Source of the DNA: a virus
DNA: 20,076 nt
IMG/VR virus record: IMGVR_UViG_3300035670_001497
Location: 1 to 20,076 of that record
Strand: one strand, 5' to 3'
Part shown: positions 1 to 16,088 of the stretch, one piece after another
Layout of the letters: the number at the start of each line of letters is the position of its first letter
Numbering within the stretch: the first letter of the stretch is position 1
Program-made: the position numbers and the translations under genes
Notes under the pieces: generated by a model
Databases searched by the model: none
What the model saw: only the letters and a program-made list of their open reading frames with translations
What the model was told of the DNA's origin: nothing

Positions 1-1100
1 AATCCATCATGAATGTATTTGTTGGTACTTAATTGACCATCGGCGTTTCTAAAATAACCGCCGTATTTTGTTGTTGCCCCAAGAATAAGATTTACTACAG
101 CAACATTTGGATTAAATTCTCCAGTGCCTGGTATTATTTCTGGATGTGTTGCGTCTATAAATTTTATTTGAGATGGGGGAAAATTTGTGTTGTAGGCTAT
201 TCCATATTCTTTTACGTTGCACGAAATGATAGCACCATTAGCATCAACTTCAGATACTCTAATGATTGCACCTTCACCAAAAGAGTCTTGAATTTTTAGT
301 GTATCACCAATTTTATATCCTCTACCCTGCTTAATTACTTTTATTTTGCTAACAAGAGGGCTGGCAACACCAGTGATAGTGACAGTATTGTTTCCGTCCA
401 CAAAACTACAAACAATAGTTTCGCCAGGCTCAAACGATCCTGTTATGCTTGCGGTGTTTAAAACTAGTTCGTATGCACCGGTCGACAAAAATGATATTCC
501 ATAAAACCTTTCAACAAAAGCAACCGTGTTTGTTTTTGTTCCTCGAATTTTTTGTGCTCTAATGTTTTTAATATCACCAACAACATTTGTTAATCGCAAA
601 GTTTGATTTTGAATCCATTTTCCATCAGATGTTCGTAAAATGTCTACTTTGGGATAATATAGATATGAATTTGAGTTAAACAGAATTCTAAAAAGAAACT
701 TAAAAGATTTTTCAGTTCCTTTTGCTCCGTAAAATTGTTTGATGTTTTTTAAAACAATCGACGGGTCGGCCTCAAGATTTCTTGGTAAAATTGATAAAAA
801 CTCATTAAATAGATGCTCTTCGTATTCCTCTTCAACCGTATCAATATCTTGATTTTCTAATAATCGTCTTGCCTCATGTAATGGCTGCCCTCTTGAGTCC
901 AACCAAGAGTAATATGCTTCCATAAATTGTATAAATGCTGGATGATCTTCCGATACAAATTCTGGAAATTGCGATTTAACAAATACTGCAACTCCTGGCA
1001 AATCGTTTGTGTTTGATATTGAATTTCCAACACCAACCGGAGATGTCAATGGTATAATATCTTTCTGTGGTCGTTGTATAGATGGTGCAGCAATTATCAT
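1..1100 (-). CDS. Virion/baseplate structural protein, partial (3' end beyond left edge)
   Basis: An open frame runs from an ATG off the left edge, giving 366 visible residues. The ATG overlaps the stop of the gp6-like gene (ATGA), so the two are probably translationally coupled. Residues about 40-160 are helical and contain FPEFV, EAYYSWLD and GTEKSFKFLFRILF, a signature I associate with structural proteins encoded next to gp6 in marine T4-like phages. Residues about 250-305 contain a G-R-G-Y-K-I-G-D followed by G-E-G-A and a second G-containing turn, a beta motif common in phage tail proteins. It probably belongs to the baseplate wedge or tail periphery. A T4 gp7-like role is possible, but I cannot show homology. 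The C-terminus is not in the window. Confidence 0.8.
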   Translation of the reverse strand, partial: MIIAAPSIQRPQKDIIPLTSPVGVGNSISNTNDLPGVAVFVKSQFPEFVSEDHPAFIQFMEAYYSWLDSRGQPLHEARRLLENQDIDTVEEEYEEHLFNEFLSILPRNLEADPSIVLKNIKQFYGAKGTEKSFKFLFRILFNSNSYLYYPKVDILRTSDGKWIQNQTLRLTNVVGDIKNIRAQKIRGTKTNTVAFVERFYGISFLSTGAYELVLNTASITGSFEPGETIVCSFVDGNNTVTITGVASPLVSKIKVIKQGRGYKIGDTLKIQDSFGEGAIIRVSEVDANGAIISCNVKEYGIAYNTNFPPSQIKFIDATHPEIIPGTGEFNPNVAVVNLILGATTKYGGYFRNADGQLSTNKYIHDG

Positions 1101-2905
1101 GACAATCTAACTTTATTCAAATTCACAGTCTCTACAAAAATATCTTCATCTTCGAGTCTTAGTATTTGATTTCTAAAAGCAATCACGTCGTTATTTTTAG
1201 GTAATATAAAAACATCGATGTATATTTGATTGTTAGGTATTCTATCAACCATTATGTTTTGAATGTTGATTTTTCCTGTTGTGTAGTCAACTGTTCCTGC
1301 TGAACTGTTTACAACAATTCTTCTGCCATTTAAGATGTAGTACAAAAATAGTTTTCCTTTTCCATCATCAGCCAACCTAACAGTTGTTCCTTTGTAAACA
1401 AACTCTGTGCTGTTGATTGCAGAGTTGTCGTTGGTTGCATCACCTTTATCAATAGGATTGTTGAGTGCAATTTCTTGACTGAATGTTGTGTAAAATGGGG
1501 GTATAATTCTATACTTGACTGTGATGTTGGTTGTGTTGCTTTCTATAGAAGGATCTAATCCATCTATTTGCCTAACAAGTTTTGATTGTCTGAAATCCGA
1601 ATCAAAACCAGATAAATTAAGAGTTCTAAAGCGTTTAATGCCATCAACAACAAGATTTTTAATATCACCATCTTGTTTGTTTGTTTTGTCTGCAAAGAAA
1701 GATACTTTGCTTGATACTGTTATATACAAATAATCTGGCTCTAATATCTCAACATCTAGCGCAAGAATACTTCTAGGCTTAATAAAATTTTCAATCAATC
1801 TAGTTTTGTCATCTGTATTAAATGCATATCCAGATTTAGGTTTAATAGAACAAAATACTTTACCATACACGGGAGGATCTGCCTCATCACCACCCCACAC
1901 TCGAATATGTTCTATTGATGGTATATCACGCTTCAATAATGTTTCATAGTCTAATTTTGTTACCACTCGATTTTGTGATGTGTATGCTCTTGGTGCAACC
2001 AGCTTTATAGACTCTAAAGATTCCTGCTCAACAAAACCAGATGCTGGAGATGTGCACACTAAAGTTGCTGTTGCACCACCTGTTACATTAATTGAACGAG
2101 TTGATACAAAATTTCGTGCACCTTCCGGCTCTTTTCCTGCCGAGACCAGATAGTCCAGTTTAACTATGTTGCCATTCTCTAGTGCTTTTCCTAAAATGCC
2201 ATCACCAAATACAACCTCATATAAACCATCTTCATATGGTTGAATAAAATATATTGGCGTTGTCGGAGACAAAAGATTCACATCATCAGCAAGAGTAAAC
2301 ACTTGTTCCAGTGAATTAGAGGCCGAGGTAATAACAGTTATTACCAAAGACGACAAATCAACCATTTGATTGGGAATTACATATCTTTGTTTAATTGGCA
2401 AGTTGTTGTCTACAGTATATGTGTGAACTAATCTTGTTCCTTGTATCAACGAAACATTTCTAGCAACATATTTTCCTGCCGAATTAATTTCTATGAATAA
2501 TGGGCTTTCCAATACAAAATCAAATCGTTTGTTATTTACATAAGATGCAAAGGCATTATCTCGTGTTAGGTACAGTCGGCTTTGGGCAACAGATGGTGTG
2601 TTTGGAGTTATTGTTATGTCAACTATTGCTTTATGACTTTTTACGCTATATGGTACATATCCTAAATGTTTTGCTCGTGATGTCACAGATTCACGCAACG
2701 AGGCGCTATCTAAAAACATTTCACTAGCCAACATGTTTAGGTAAAATCCATTGTATGTTGTGTTGTATGCAAGAACGTCCAAAAGAACGGACAACGAAGT
2801 GCCGTCAAAGTTGTAGTCCTTAAATTGATCTTGGGACTTTAAAAAATCTTTAAGATTGTTTTTTACAGTATCAAAGTCCAATGAGTTCAATTTTATGTGT
2901 GACAT
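1097..2905 (-). CDS. 6: Baseplate wedge protein, T4 gp6-like
   Basis: The product is 602 residues; T4 gp6 is about 660. The N-terminus (residues 10-85) has the helical signature of gp6 in cyanophage-type T4-like phages, including FDGTSLSVLLDVLAYNTTYN and SRAKHLGYVPYS. The middle (about 260-380) looks like a baseplate-J type fold, with GGATATL, a proline/arginine VAPRAYTSQNRVVTKLDYE stretch and IEHIRVWGG. In T4, gp6 dimers form the ring that joins the wedges of the baseplate. The start ATG shares one base with the stop of the gp25-like gene (TAATG), and its own stop overlaps the next ATG. The three genes are therefore one translationally coupled late unit. Gene symbol follows the T4 nomenclature. 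Confidence 0.93.
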   Translation of the reverse strand: MSHIKLNSLDFDTVKNNLKDFLKSQDQFKDYNFDGTSLSVLLDVLAYNTTYNGFYLNMLASEMFLDSASLRESVTSRAKHLGYVPYSVKSHKAIVDITITPNTPSVAQSRLYLTRDNAFASYVNNKRFDFVLESPLFIEINSAGKYVARNVSLIQGTRLVHTYTVDNNLPIKQRYVIPNQMVDLSSLVITVITSASNSLEQVFTLADDVNLLSPTTPIYFIQPYEDGLYEVVFGDGILGKALENGNIVKLDYLVSAGKEPEGARNFVSTRSINVTGGATATLVCTSPASGFVEQESLESIKLVAPRAYTSQNRVVTKLDYETLLKRDIPSIEHIRVWGGDEADPPVYGKVFCSIKPKSGYAFNTDDKTRLIENFIKPRSILALDVEILEPDYLYITVSSKVSFFADKTNKQDGDIKNLVVDGIKRFRTLNLSGFDSDFRQSKLVRQIDGLDPSIESNTTNITVKYRIIPPFYTTFSQEIALNNPIDKGDATNDNSAINSTEFVYKGTTVRLADDGKGKLFLYYILNGRRIVVNSSAGTVDYTTGKINIQNIMVDRIPNNQIYIDVFILPKNNDVIAFRNQILRLEDEDIFVETVNLNKVRLS

Positions 2906-3297
2906 TATCGAAGCCTTTCTAAGAAAAAGTCTACCGTTGTAACATCAGATAATTGATCGATTGCAAAAAGCAACACAACACTGTATCCATTCTCATCTGG
3001 CGCAACATTAACGGAAAGTGAAATAATTTTTACTCTTGGTTCATATGCAACAATAGTATCTTTAATTGCAAGCTCTATTGAGTGTTGTGTTAGTGGCGTA
3101 ATTGGCTCAAACAAAAGTTGCTTTAAGTTTGCTCCCATGTTTGGTTGAAACAACCTTTCATATTGTCCGGTCAGCATTAAATTACGAATGGATCTTTTTA
3201 CAGCATCCGCATCCTTCAACAACACTATATCTCCAGATATAGGATGTGGAACAAAATCAAAATCCAAATCTGTTATTTTTCTGACAGTATCTACCAT
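2905..3297 (-). CDS. 25: Baseplate wedge protein, gp25/GPW family
   Basis: This gene encodes 130 residues from the ATG; an in-frame TTG two codons upstream would give 132, the length of T4 gp25. It shows the GPW_gp25 pattern: an N-terminal TDLDFDFVPHPISGDI, then a helix with VKRSIRNLMLTGQYERLFQP, NMGANLKQLLFEP, and a C-terminal strand pair around PRVKIISLSV. In T4, gp25 nucleates sheath assembly in the wedge; despite the historical 'lysozyme' label it is structural. No clear Shine-Dalgarno is present. The upstream region has a late-promoter-like element about 30 bases before the start. It sits between gp5-like and gp6-like genes, as expected for a baseplate cluster. Confidence 0.92.
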   Translation of the reverse strand: MVDTVRKITDLDFDFVPHPISGDIVLLKDADAVKRSIRNLMLTGQYERLFQPNMGANLKQLLFEPITPLTQHSIELAIKDTIVAYEPRVKIISLSVNVAPDENGYSVVLLFAIDQLSDVTTVDFFLERLR

Positions 3298-3327
3298 GGA
3301 CAATCAGGCAAGTATAAACATACAAGA

Positions 3328-3335
3328 TATTTATT
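3328..3335 (-). promoter_or_regulatory. T4-like late promoter candidate before gp25
   Basis: Minus-strand AATAAATA matches the T4 late element TATAAATA at 7 of 8 positions and lies about 30 bases upstream of the gp25 ATG, in the only gap between the gp5-like and gp25 genes. Together with the perfect copy upstream of gp5 it supports late transcription by a sigma55-type factor. No such factor is seen in this window. Confidence 0.5.
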
Positions 3336-3373
3336 GCTCTTTATTTAAGGGCTTTGCTTGAAATTGGTATCTG

Positions 3374-6166
3374 CTATGCTTTTTTGGATCGAGTCTTTTT
3401 ATCTTGAACAGATACGGTAGTTGGGGCGTTATCATAAGTTTTGCTATTAACTCCTCGTGTGCTATTGATTGATGCTCGTCTAGTTGTTATTTCAGCATCC
3501 CTATCTGCTTGTGATATTTGTCCAGGTGCCTCTGTTGATGTGGCAGTCACAGCAGTGGTTCCAACTTTTGATTCTACTTTTGGATCATACGCTGCATTAA
3601 ATTGGTGTCGTGAAGCGGCATTTACAATAAAATGTGATGCCTTTTCTACAGAGCCATTTTTAATAACAAGAAACATATTTTTTGGATATTGTGCACCAGG
3701 CTTGCCCCATCTGCAAAGATGTCGTCCATCACCCTCAAATGTGGTGTATGTTACTGGTTTATCAAGCAGTTTTCCTCTAACAAATACAGGCCGTGTTTCA
3801 ATCCACTCTGTTGTTGTTCCGCTAATTTGTAGATACTTAACTTTAATTGCTTCTGTTTCTCCAGTATCAACGGCTTCATACAATTCATGATTAGAACCAG
3901 AATGTGAAAGTGTACATAAGTTTCCGTTGCTTTCTGATGTTGGCTTATACACATCGCCTATAGCACCAGTTGGAAACAAATATCCAAATTTTGGTGATGC
4001 ACTGCCTGCTTCTTCGCTGCCGGCTTCTGGACCAGGTTTTGTAACATCAAAATCTTCTATGATTCTATCAAACATTTGTGCGCCTGTTAAACATTGATGT
4101 CTAACTGCGGAGTCTAATATGATTAACGGAGTCACGGCGCTTGCAACATCAGTTACACCAACAATATCCCATATAAGCTGTTTTGGATATGCTTTGCCAG
4201 GTTTTGGCCAGCGCCACATTCTTCTTCCATCCAAGAACACATCTGCTCTAGGCGCACCAAACATATTTGTTATTTCAGCACCACGAATGTGTTTTGGTCT
4301 AACAACTTCCCATTCAGTTATTTGGCCGTCTGGGTGAGCATACTTAATATACACAGGCTCAAGTTCTCCTGTTGGTATCGCTTCAAATAGCTTATGCTCA
4401 CCCATTCCTTCAGATAGCGTAACAAGATTTTTATCGCTGTCTGATATTGGTTTCCATACTGCTCCTATACCACCTTCAGGAATCAAGAAGCCATATTTTA
4501 AAGAAGCATCTTCTGTTGTTTCTTTGTACCAATCTTCGTTATCAGCTTTGTTTTTTTCTACAAGAGATGGTATAGGAATGCCAGGATAAAAATCATGAAT
4601 GGCAGGAATGGCGGCAACCGCAAGATGTGACACCAAAAACAGACTGTTTATCTCAAATGACACCATATTAACTGTTGTAAAACCACCGCCGAATCCTTGC
4701 ATAGTAATATCTGGTGCACACAGGTCTATGCCAACTTTTGATTTTATTTGTACCTTTTCGTCAGATTCGATGACTATTGTTTTGGCAGCCTTAATGTGCA
4801 ACTCACCATCTTTAACACAAAGATAAGCGCCGGCGCCAACGTGAGTCATAGAAATATCTTCTATGAGAGAATATGTTCCTCCCTTAATTCTACTGTATGC
4901 ATCTTTATCAACATTTGTTGTTAAATTTTCACCAACTTGTTGCATCAAGTTTGCGCCACTGTTTAATATGATGCCAGTTGTGCCTTTAATCTTTACTGCT
5001 TCCATTGCTGAAGCGTTTATGTTTTTGGCAGATGATAAGAAATAATCCTCTATAACAAAATTGTAATCGGACTTCTTTACCTTTGTAACTTGTGTTCCGT
5101 CTGGATGTATTTCTCTAAATGTGCCCGAACGATGATACCAATGCAATCTTTCTGCACCAGGAGTATCATCAACTTCAATAAAGTGGCCAGATTCAGACTC
5201 GTACACATGGTTAAATGGATACTTGGCATCATATGGTGTTTCTGGCTCTTCAAATGCCGCAGGCTCAACCGTGGTATCAAGACCAACACCGGACGAGTCG
5301 TAACCTGCTGCCTCACCAGTTTCTAACATTCCTTTTTTAAGACCAACTATTGTTTGATCAATATTTTCATTTCGTGACAGTCTTGATGTTACAGGCTCCA
5401 TTAATCTATCCTGTAACGGATATGGCGACAGTGTTGGTGGGTTTATTTCTTCTTTGTCTTTTGGTGTACCATCAGGATTAAACAATTTTAAAATCGAATC
5501 AAGCACAATACCGATTGTTGCTAGTATGCCAGATCCACCACCAAAAACAGTTCGTCTAAAAAGACTGATGTTTGATTGTATGATTAAGCCAGCATCACTG
5601 ACATCATACGAACCGTCTTTGTTTAAATCATATTTGCAATTTTCTGGATCAAAAGTTTTTGCCAATTCACCAAAGACACTTGTGTTGCCAGGAACTTTTT
5701 CCTCATCATAAAATCGACCCTTCTTTTCTGCTTCACCAGAAGTGTCTTGAGAATCTTCTGATTCTCCACCAGAGGCCTGTGCTGATAAATCGGGAGGTCT
5801 AGGATGAGAGTCTGGAGAAATGTCCTCGGGTTTAGTTGGATCTCCAAACCCTAAATTAAGATCGGCAGGCTTTTCATCAATACCTGGAATGTAACCACAT
5901 ACTATTGGGCGCTGAGCCTCAGGACCGTCCATGAAAAAGCCCCACACCCAATCACCCTCTTTTAATCCAACTGGGTTTCTGCCATTATCAAAAGGTATAC
6001 TAACTGCTGCCCAGGGAAGTTCTTCGGGAGGAATTTTTTGTTTATCTTCTGAGTGCCAACCAAAGATTCGGACTTTAACACGACCAAGCATGATAGGATC
6101 TTTACGATCTTCTACCACACCTTTCCACCAAATAAATTGATCTTTACCTAAGAATCTTGAGTCCAT
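3374..6166 (-). CDS. 5: Baseplate central spike/hub, T4 gp5-like, with EF-hand loop and duplicated C-terminal module
   Basis: The product is 930 residues, much longer than T4 gp5 (575). Residues 1-100 form the gp5 N-terminal OB-fold, with a WWKGVVEDRKDP start, LGRVKVRIFGWH and GDWVWGFFMDGPEAQRPIVCG. Residues about 105-160 are an acidic, low-complexity linker. Residues 180-191 (DLNKDGSYDVSD) form a complete EF-hand/dockerin-type calcium loop. I see no lysozyme domain where T4 gp5 has one. Residues about 310-500 (GHFIEVDD, HWYHRSGTFREIHPDGT, then alternating short strands) resemble the gp5/VgrG beta-helix spike. Residues 557-692 and 727-855 are two diverged copies of one module. The C-terminus is basic (TRSKKA). 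It is expected to pierce the outer membrane at the tail tip. The start follows a perfect late-promoter element, and no clear Shine-Dalgarno is visible. Confidence 0.9.
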   Translation of the reverse strand: MDSRFLGKDQFIWWKGVVEDRKDPIMLGRVKVRIFGWHSEDKQKIPPEELPWAAVSIPFDNGRNPVGLKEGDWVWGFFMDGPEAQRPIVCGYIPGIDEKPADLNLGFGDPTKPEDISPDSHPRPPDLSAQASGGESEDSQDTSGEAEKKGRFYDEEKVPGNTSVFGELAKTFDPENCKYDLNKDGSYDVSDAGLIIQSNISLFRRTVFGGGSGILATIGIVLDSILKLFNPDGTPKDKEEINPPTLSPYPLQDRLMEPVTSRLSRNENIDQTIVGLKKGMLETGEAAGYDSSGVGLDTTVEPAAFEEPETPYDAKYPFNHVYESESGHFIEVDDTPGAERLHWYHRSGTFREIHPDGTQVTKVKKSDYNFVIEDYFLSSAKNINASAMEAVKIKGTTGIILNSGANLMQQVGENLTTNVDKDAYSRIKGGTYSLIEDISMTHVGAGAYLCVKDGELHIKAAKTIVIESDEKVQIKSKVGIDLCAPDITMQGFGGGFTTVNMVSFEINSLFLVSHLAVAAIPAIHDFYPGIPIPSLVEKNKADNEDWYKETTEDASLKYGFLIPEGGIGAVWKPISDSDKNLVTLSEGMGEHKLFEAIPTGELEPVYIKYAHPDGQITEWEVVRPKHIRGAEITNMFGAPRADVFLDGRRMWRWPKPGKAYPKQLIWDIVGVTDVASAVTPLIILDSAVRHQCLTGAQMFDRIIEDFDVTKPGPEAGSEEAGSASPKFGYLFPTGAIGDVYKPTSESNGNLCTLSHSGSNHELYEAVDTGETEAIKVKYLQISGTTTEWIETRPVFVRGKLLDKPVTYTTFEGDGRHLCRWGKPGAQYPKNMFLVIKNGSVEKASHFIVNAASRHQFNAAYDPKVESKVGTTAVTATSTEAPGQISQADRDAEITTRRASINSTRGVNSKTYDNAPTTVSVQDKKTRSKKA
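3602..4498 (-). repeat. Duplicated protein module in the gp5-like C-terminus
   Basis: Two copies (residues about 557-692 and 727-855) share an ordered set of motifs. YGFLIPEGGIGAVWKP aligns with FGYLFPTGAIGDVYKP, HKLFEAIPTGE with HELYEAVDTGE, TEWEVVRPKHIRG with TEWIETRPVFVRG, RWPKPGKAYPK with RWGKPGAQYPK, and SAVRHQ with SASRHQ-like AASRHQ. The copies are joined by a proline/glutamate/glycine linker. The DNA of the copies has diverged, so the duplication is old. Confidence 0.85.
5594..5629 (-). other. EF-hand/dockerin-type calcium loop in the gp5-like protein
   Basis: The twelve residues D-L-N-K-D-G-S-Y-D-V-S-D place Asp, Asn, Asp, Gly, Asp and Asp at loop positions 1, 3, 5, 6, 9 and 12. This is the canonical calcium-coordinating pattern, and it is followed by a hydrophobic helix (AGLIIQ) as in dockerin repeats. 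Only one loop is clear. Confidence 0.75.
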
Positions 6167-10159: not shown

Positions 10160-10235
10160 TGGAGCCATCTGTAGGATTCGAACCAACGACCTACGGTTTA
10201 CAAAACCGTTGCTCTACCAACTGAGCTAAGATGGC
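10160..10235 (-). tRNA. tRNA-Thr (anticodon UGU)
   Basis: A complete 76-base cloverleaf with encoded CCA. The acceptor stem is GCCATCT/AGATGGC, the D stem GCTC/GAGC, and the anticodon stem ACGGT/ACCGT around loop TTTGTAA, giving anticodon TGT (reads ACA, threonine). The T loop is TTCGAAT. Oddities: a T-T mismatch at the middle of the T stem and U at the discriminator position, where bacterial tRNA-Thr usually has A. The gene overlaps the end of the upstream protein gene by ten bases. ACA is common in the A+T-rich late genes here, so it may serve late translation. Confidence 0.95.
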
Positions 10236-15384: not shown

Positions 15385-15840
15385 TTACCCTATTAGGGAG
15401 CGCCCTTGGGTGTTGAGCTGGCCATGTTCGTGCATACTATGATAGGCATCTTGGCCAACGATAACGTGGTCCAGGAGTTTGATTCCCAGATATTTCGATG
15501 CCTCTAGGAGGGTTTTCGTTACGGAAAGATCCTCGCGGCTTGGCTCAACATTACCCGACGGATGATTATGACACAACACAATAGACACAGCTCCGGCCAT
15601 AATAGCTGGCTGGAATACTTCTCGTGGATGTACAGGCGCACTGGTAGCAGTACCAACGGCCACTACGTTATACGCAACGACGGAATGGTTGCCGTCAAGG
15701 CAAAACATGATAAGGTGTTCTTTTCCGTTTTCTTTGATGATTTTCCTGGCAAACTTAGCGATGGCCTCAGGCCCTCGGATGTCGACCGCGGTCTTGTGTT
15801 TTTTTCCGTATCGAACCGAAACCTGTCTAACGTATTTCAT
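15385..15840 (-). CDS. Stand-alone RadC-like JAB/MPN domain protein
   Basis: The 151-residue product contains the RadC C-terminal domain signature: ALxxGAVSIVLC-HNHPSG-NVEPSREDLSVTKTL, then YLGIKLLDHVIVG. The putative metal-binding residues are H91, H93 and D104, with E41 at the place of the catalytic glutamate and S96 in HNHPSG. VGTATSAPVHPREVFQPAIMAGA is also typical. The N-terminal helix-hairpin-helix of full RadC is absent, as in many phage and mobile-element versions. JAB domains are usually isopeptidases or related hydrolases, and RadC's own role in DNA repair is disputed. The start follows AAAGGA; a TTG eight codons earlier is rejected. It is the last gene of the 17160-15385 unit, followed by hairpins. 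Confidence 0.92.
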   Translation of the reverse strand: MKYVRQVSVRYGKKHKTAVDIRGPEAIAKFARKIIKENGKEHLIMFCLDGNHSVVAYNVVAVGTATSAPVHPREVFQPAIMAGAVSIVLCHNHPSGNVEPSREDLSVTKTLLEASKYLGIKLLDHVIVGQDAYHSMHEHGQLNTQGRSLIG

Positions 15841-15842
15841 AA

Positions 15843-16088
15843 CTATTTGTCCTTTAATCCCCAAATTTTTGCTATCTCTGACAGTGGCTGCTCATGTTCA
15901 TAAAGGTAGTCGATGATGCGCTGGAGCATTTCACGCCTTCCCATCAGGAACATCTTGTAACTTTCCGACGAGTTGCCAGGTGCGTCCTCGGCCTGCTGGT
16001 CAATCTGTTGGGAAAGCTCATCAATCTTACCCCAAAGGTTCTCGGCATTCAAATATTTTCTTGACGGATCGTCCCACGGCCGTGACAT
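15843..16088 (-). CDS. Hypothetical protein, 81 aa
   Basis: The second of two adjacent ATGs fits AAGGAG better (five bases rather than two). A charged helical protein with LNAENLWGKIDELSQQIDQQ, RREMLQRIIDYLYEHEQPL and an end IAKIWGLKDK. It shares the TAATG zone with the upstream stop, so translation is probably coupled. No family is recognised. Confidence 0.74.
   Translation of the reverse strand: MSRPWDDPSRKYLNAENLWGKIDELSQQIDQQAEDAPGNSSESYKMFLMGRREMLQRIIDYLYEHEQPLSEIAKIWGLKDK

Follow-up and report, generated by a model that had tools for sequence, protein, structure and literature searches.

Baseplate genes of the window and layout of the hub

The window, that is the whole stretch of DNA analysed here, consists of the 20,076 bases of an IMG/VR virus record which is probably a fragment. 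Its minus strand carries a T4-type baseplate gene row, made up of a hub and three wedge-type proteins:

3374-6166, minus strand: hub, translated ORF of 930 aa
2905-3303, minus strand: baseplate wedge subunit (PHROGs family match)
1097-2905, minus strand: baseplate wedge subunit (PHROGs family match)
3-1100, minus strand, running off the window end: baseplate wedge subunit (PHROGs family match)

In this order, we take the wedge proteins to be gp25, gp6 and gp53-like. The window also contains a tRNA-Thr (anticodon tgt) at 10160-10235 on the minus strand, with a same-anticodon tRNA-Thr at 913-988 of locus L002, and an ORF (15385-15864, minus strand) whose HNHPSG motif is presumably RadC-like. None of 17 records matched PF00124 (photosystem genes, a sign of a cyanobacterial host).

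Within the hub, the following features were delimited:

3374-6166, minus strand: whole T4 gp5-like baseplate hub/spike (Gp5_OB, phrog_430, T4 gp5 PDB chains)
5831-6049, minus strand: OB domain, Pfam-matched part, residues 40-112 (Gp5_OB)
5522-5719, minus strand: conserved linker module, residues 150-215 (alignments A5-A7)
5594-5629, minus strand: calcium-type loop DLNKDGSYDVSD, residues 180-191 (sequence, 23-row ligand tally)
5558-5602, minus strand: predicted F-helix after the loop, residues 189-203 (AlphaFold models: A6; matching helix in L009/A7)
4730-5290, minus strand: spike/beta-helix region, residues 293-479 (best stretch of phrog_430, T4 gp5 alignment)
4088-4498, minus strand: clade-specific domain, copy 1, residues 557-693 (no Pfam match)
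3599-3991, minus strand: clade-specific domain, copy 2, residues 726-856 (44% identical to copy 1)

The hub matched Gp5_OB (PF06714) at residues 40-112 (E 1.6e-8; 35.3 bits versus a cut-off of 25), a domain also present in all 10 further clade hubs scanned, as well as phrog_430, 'baseplate hub subunit and tail lysozyme' (E 4.9e-77), and the PDB chains of T4 gp5 (E about 4e-26), the beta-helix of which aligned to residues 304-390. It thus resembles the T4 gp5 hub in its OB domain, its spike region and its adjoining baseplate wedge genes, but differs in lacking the lysozyme, in carrying an F-hand in the linker and in having an extra domain past the beta-helix. For T4 gp5, the part of the source available gives an OB domain at 1-129, the lysozyme at 174-339 and the beta-helix at 389-575 (PMC4576200). 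No Pfam hydrolase was detected in the window hub, nor in any of the same 10 further clade hubs. A match to phrog_181, 'endolysin', covers residues 305-365 (E 4.5e-8); since the PHROGs matches fall in the spike region and not in the linker, we read 'tail lysozyme' and 'endolysin' as family labels. The earlier note had located a calcium loop in the linker of a gp5-like spike, at the site of the T4 lysozyme, and the loop does lie between Gp5_OB (40-112) and the beta-helix-aligned stretch (304-390). The module around it is ordered as an LPG-x-N-x-AFG-x-L block (consensus), the calcium loop, the F-helix and F-x-G.

In four other hubs (L057, L060, L065 and L017), a long insertion, helical by eye, separates the OB domain from the calcium module; Pfam gave no match in this extra linker region.

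Conservation of the loop

The translation of 5594-5629 yields a complete DxNxDGxxDxxD loop, just as had been claimed. To tabulate it across relatives, we used 23 loop rows, which include both L057 and L158 (identical loop sequence) and omit the loop-bearing partial hub L161. In these rows, (i) positions 1 and 12 are D throughout (23/23 each), (ii) position 3 is N in 22 and D in one, (iii) position 5 is D in 21 and N in 2, (iv) position 6 is G in 22 and N in one, (v) position 8 is always aromatic (Y in 19, F in 4), and (vi) position 9 is D in 17 and N in 6. All 23 rows therefore have D or N at each of the side-chain ligand positions 1, 3, 5, 9 and 12, and positions 7, 10 and 11 are variable. 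The ligand codons show synonymous variation among the rows. Between the window and L001, dS ranges from 0.8 to 1.3 in larger hub regions and is not computable in the loop, where the two sequences differ by two amino-acid changes, at positions 10 and 11.

In a permutation test on alignment A7 (21 rows), the five ligand columns exceeded module columns drawn at random, five at a time, in conservation (p 1.4e-4); when D and N were pooled as one class, the entropy of the ligand columns fell to zero and p to about 1e-5, both values being obtained from related rows and non-independent columns. Outside the loop, P, FG and G are conserved in the module, the upstream P and G being invariant and the F nearly so (21 rows). 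The strict loop pattern occurred 23 times in 265,314 residues (open segments of at least 80 aa, identical ones counted once). Over 176 loci it was found in 22 distinct sequence contexts, all 22 of which were the hub-linker module, a count that says little about the remaining parts of these genomes, as the loci had been fetched around hubs. The loop is beyond chance.

Predicted structure

The AlphaFold models of the module are both of modest overall confidence. For window residues 150-267 (A6), the mean pLDDT was 62 and the pTM 0.28, with 79 for the block holding most of the loop and a helix at residues 189-203. The compact module of L009 (A7, 21 rows) gave a mean pLDDT of 70 and a pTM of 0.42, the loop block reaching 88 and the next block 83. 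The dockerin-like helix that had been proposed to follow the loop was recovered, beginning at loop position 10 in the window model and likewise in that of L009. In neither model is there an E-helix, as just three helical residues precede the loop, and there is no paired second hand. In dockerins the helix starts inside the end of the loop and an E-helix is missing; the predicted loop and following helix without an E-helix have this dockerin-type F-hand layout. Compared with a canonical EF-hand of the calmodulin type, with which it shares the 12-residue loop and D1, N3, D5, G6 and D9, the hub loop has D instead of E at position 12 and lacks the E-helix and the partner hand.

Fold searches with Foldseek gave only 5 unrelated matches for the first model (E 6.4 or worse), none of them an EF-hand or dockerin, and 0 matches for the second (L009), so that VIA-align was left with nothing to compare. 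The flanking linker is variable in length and of low pLDDT. These features would suit an acidic, disordered linker that resembles a calcium loop but has no function. We regard such an explanation as very improbable, because the conserved ligand positions are hardly compatible with it: D or N is retained at them in every one of the 23 rows amid varying neighbours, both permutation results point the same way, and the loop block is the part predicted with pLDDT 79 and 88.

Relation to dockerins

When profiles of the module were compared with the PDB, the best matches were dockerins (E 1.3e-3 and 4e-4), followed by EF-hand proteins such as secretagogin; the window sequence alone retrieved no dockerin and only secretagogin (E 0.95). 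At E up to 1, Dockerin_1 matched 17 of the 21 module members (best E 4e-4), and the EF-hand family PF13202 matched 3 of the 21 (best E 0.011). At the level of whole records and with the same limit, Dockerin_1 was matched in 5 of 6 clade-side records, yet 9 of 14 control genomes gave such a match too. The best Dockerin_1 score, that of the L009 module, was 21.0 bits, below the cut-off of 22.9, and covered about half of the 57-position profile; a 48-aa piece of the window scored 13.7 bits, also below this cut-off, the 118-aa and 109-aa window fragments matched no Pfam family, and none of 6 records exceeded the cut-off. NCBIfam returned two stray families for the module, with one member each, and PHROGs found nothing on it. 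In place of the three outcomes that the earlier note had named against itself (no match, a disordered loop and no conservation), we thus obtained a profile match, a predicted loop and conservation in relatives.

Two F-hand repeats make up a dockerin, which pairs with a cohesin. In the window, a single complete loop is present and a tandem second F-hand repeat is absent. As side observations, a partial second loop of the DxDxDG type lies just past the F-helix in L007, L011, L040 and L055, with a thrombospondin-3/dockerin look by eye, and a degenerate EF-like stretch, again judged by eye, is seen further on in L004, L005 and L016. The cohesin-like partner that had been suggested was not borne out by the PF00963 search of the window record, which found none, and no match over the cut-off (24.1) was obtained in 16 clade records, some of which are perhaps fragments. 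One match of 13.6 bits, in L129, was rejected as a partner, being sub-threshold and located at the C-terminal end of a wedge protein. This protein (1402-3177, minus strand) is encoded downstream of the hub, and its C-terminal stretch appears Ig-like by eye.

The module shares with the F-hand of dockerin type I (PF00404) the DxNxDGxxDxxD motif, the D at position 12 and the best Pfam and PDB profile matches. It is distinguished from it by being single-looped, by Y or F at position 8 (23/23), by scores below the cut-off, by the invariant upstream P and G, by its place within a phage spike and by the lack of any cohesin found. The dockerin reading of the earlier note hence stands in part: dockerins are the nearest family by profile, and the loop with its F-helix agrees with them, but the sub-cut-off score, the missing tandem repeat and the lack of a cohesin led us to reject dockerin as its family. 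A loop and helix corresponding to half a dockerin, with a profile score below the cut-off, no tandem repeat and no cohesin above the cut-off in 17 records, would work like half a dockerin without being one. Dockerin-cohesin docking in the spike is unsupported. A broader variant is that the F-hand, in the lysozyme's place, depends on calcium to hold another protein, of the virion or the host; such a partner need not be a cohesin, and the records may be fragments. That dockerin is the nearest sequence family (17/21 members at E up to 1) speaks for this docking role, as do the P, FG and G conserved outside the loop, which an interaction surface would need, but the absent tandem repeat and the cohesin results (none in the window record, a single sub-threshold match among the 16 clade records) make us consider it unlikely.

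Distribution of the loop among phage hubs

Relatives were collected by IMG/VR scans, with hubs from 89% identity downward. Of 126 sequences, namely the window plus 125 loci, 101 contained a hub; 65 were kept once near-copies had been removed, and L057 and L060, absent from this list, were added later. In a 60-hub tree, for which solely the OB and beta-helix columns were used and the linker was left out, the 18 loop carriers all fell inside one 19-row group with a support of 100/100, and L019 was the only member of this group devoid of the loop. Free trees, one of them computed without L059, L113, L117 and L145, need 2 changes to account for loop presence and absence. When 20 carriers were analysed with 56 other hubs, a tree in which the carriers were constrained to one group had a p-AU of 0.806, and its score surpassed that of a short unconstrained search. 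As this tree is not rejected, a single origin of the loop is possible, though not proven. Of 20 records, most of them picked as carriers, 19 contained exactly one match to the module profile, the exception being the L019 record. In the L019 linker (hub match 3001-4410), a stretch rich in Cys, His and Asp occupies the place of the loop and is possibly another metal site, seen in this single sequence.

Overall, the loop is confined, among the hubs examined, to one clade of uncultivated T4-like phages. These phages are T4-like, a Gp23 match being found in 4 of 6 records searched, including that of L019. The capsid protein of the L004 record, the only one of the loop clade that was compared, is at best 58.0% identical to those of cultured phages, and that of L019 at best 62.4%. 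Nothing like the module was found among 50,697 phage records. One search of cultured phages returned 53 records, 52 of which were Vibrio phages matching the flanking hub sequence only; an Erwinia phage match (E 0.9) was discarded as a cultured carrier, since its stretch, when read, contained no such loop. Two further searches of cultured phages gave no match and 4 matches at E 7, respectively, a plasmid search for the module gave none, and genome contigs yielded 3 distant hubs, all without the loop.

A putative calcium clasp in the spike

We infer that the loop would bind Ca2+. We tentatively propose, giving it nearly even chances, that it forms a putative calcium clasp in the hub linker, which would be empty during cytoplasmic assembly, filled outside the cell, and would then stiffen the spike. 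An F-hand, half a dockerin repeat, would be fixed between the OB collar and the beta-helix, where T4 has its lysozyme. Calcium is scarce in the cytoplasm of bacteria and more plentiful outside, so that the loops would be empty as the hub is assembled and filled in the free virion. After release, the three loops of each hub trimer would take up calcium, and the filled F-hands would fold the otherwise flexible linkers and clasp them to the spike, giving the free virion a stiff spike; during entry, either force would open the clasp or it would lose its calcium. The position of the loop, the conservation of its ligands, its restriction to one clade of the hubs examined and the predicted loop and helix are all consistent with this clasp. 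The data would fit Mg2+ equally well, and likewise a structural site that does not switch.

A permanent structural site of this kind, with Ca2+ or Mg2+ bound at folding and the linker stabilised without any switch, strikes us as rather doubtful, albeit to be taken seriously. A lone F-hand is usually a weak binder, and its affinity would be expected to be too low for the calcium of the cytoplasm. Yet the same conservation of ligand positions fits a permanent site just as well, and spikes are known to bury metal: in the part of the source available, the internal ion of the T4 gp5 beta-helix is judged to be Mg2+, for which Ca2+ has been partially substituted in the crystal (PMC4576200). The loop, however, is of the solvent-open EF/dockerin type and not a buried axial site.

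A calcium clasp, if true, would mean that a contractile phage tail has a dockerin-type calcium loop fixed in its central spike, at the position of the tail lysozyme, and points to the linker of gp5 as a slot with exchangeable content. Calcium is a cofactor of many phage infections, and the loop offers a test of whether it acts within the piercing device itself. Among the open-paper matches listed, in a search that left subscription papers uncovered, no earlier account of an EF-hand, calcium or dockerin loop in a phage hub or spike appeared in the text available. A related case is the T6SS effector TseP, which, in the portion of the source available, combines a calcium-type motif (a predicted EF-hand) with delivery by contractile injection but, in contrast to the hub spike, is an enzyme effector; mutations in its EF-hand had no critical effect (PMC11893102).

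A clade-specific domain past the beta-helix

The two copies past the beta-helix of the window hub belong to a domain of about 135 aa. Its occurrence was determined in 80 distinct hubs, drawn from the 134 hub-bearing sequences; L040 was not among the 80, and L056 lacks its 5' end. The domain was present in 21 of the 80 hubs and the loop in 22, all 21 being loop carriers, whereas none of the 58 loop-less hubs had the domain. In the remaining carrier, L145, the hub is split and its second ORF contains the domain. Together with L040, L056 and L161, carriers outside the 80 hubs which also have the domain, this brings the count to all 25 carriers checked. Loop and domain are both absent from L019. 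If loop and domain were each gained once, their co-occurrence represents one event and is no statistical proof of a link. Neither copy of the window matched Pfam at E up to 10 or PHROGs below E 0.39, and copy 1 gave nothing against cultured phages at E up to 1.

A more far-reaching form of the clasp is a calcium-gated injection spike, in which three F-hands per trimer would replace the lysozyme, the new domain past the beta-helix would have arrived together with them, and calcium outside the cell would lock the device until its loss, or force, on entry releases it. We hold this to be improbable; if true, the phage would tell inside from outside by calcium. PAAR proteins cap other spikes, and no PAAR match (PF05488) was found in 20 records, some of them possibly fragments; that the domain past the beta-helix is the spike cap is a guess. 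As for the split hub of L145, its two ORFs (2560-3495 and 3628-4485) are broken within the spike region, by a frameshift, an assembly error or a genuine division of the gene.
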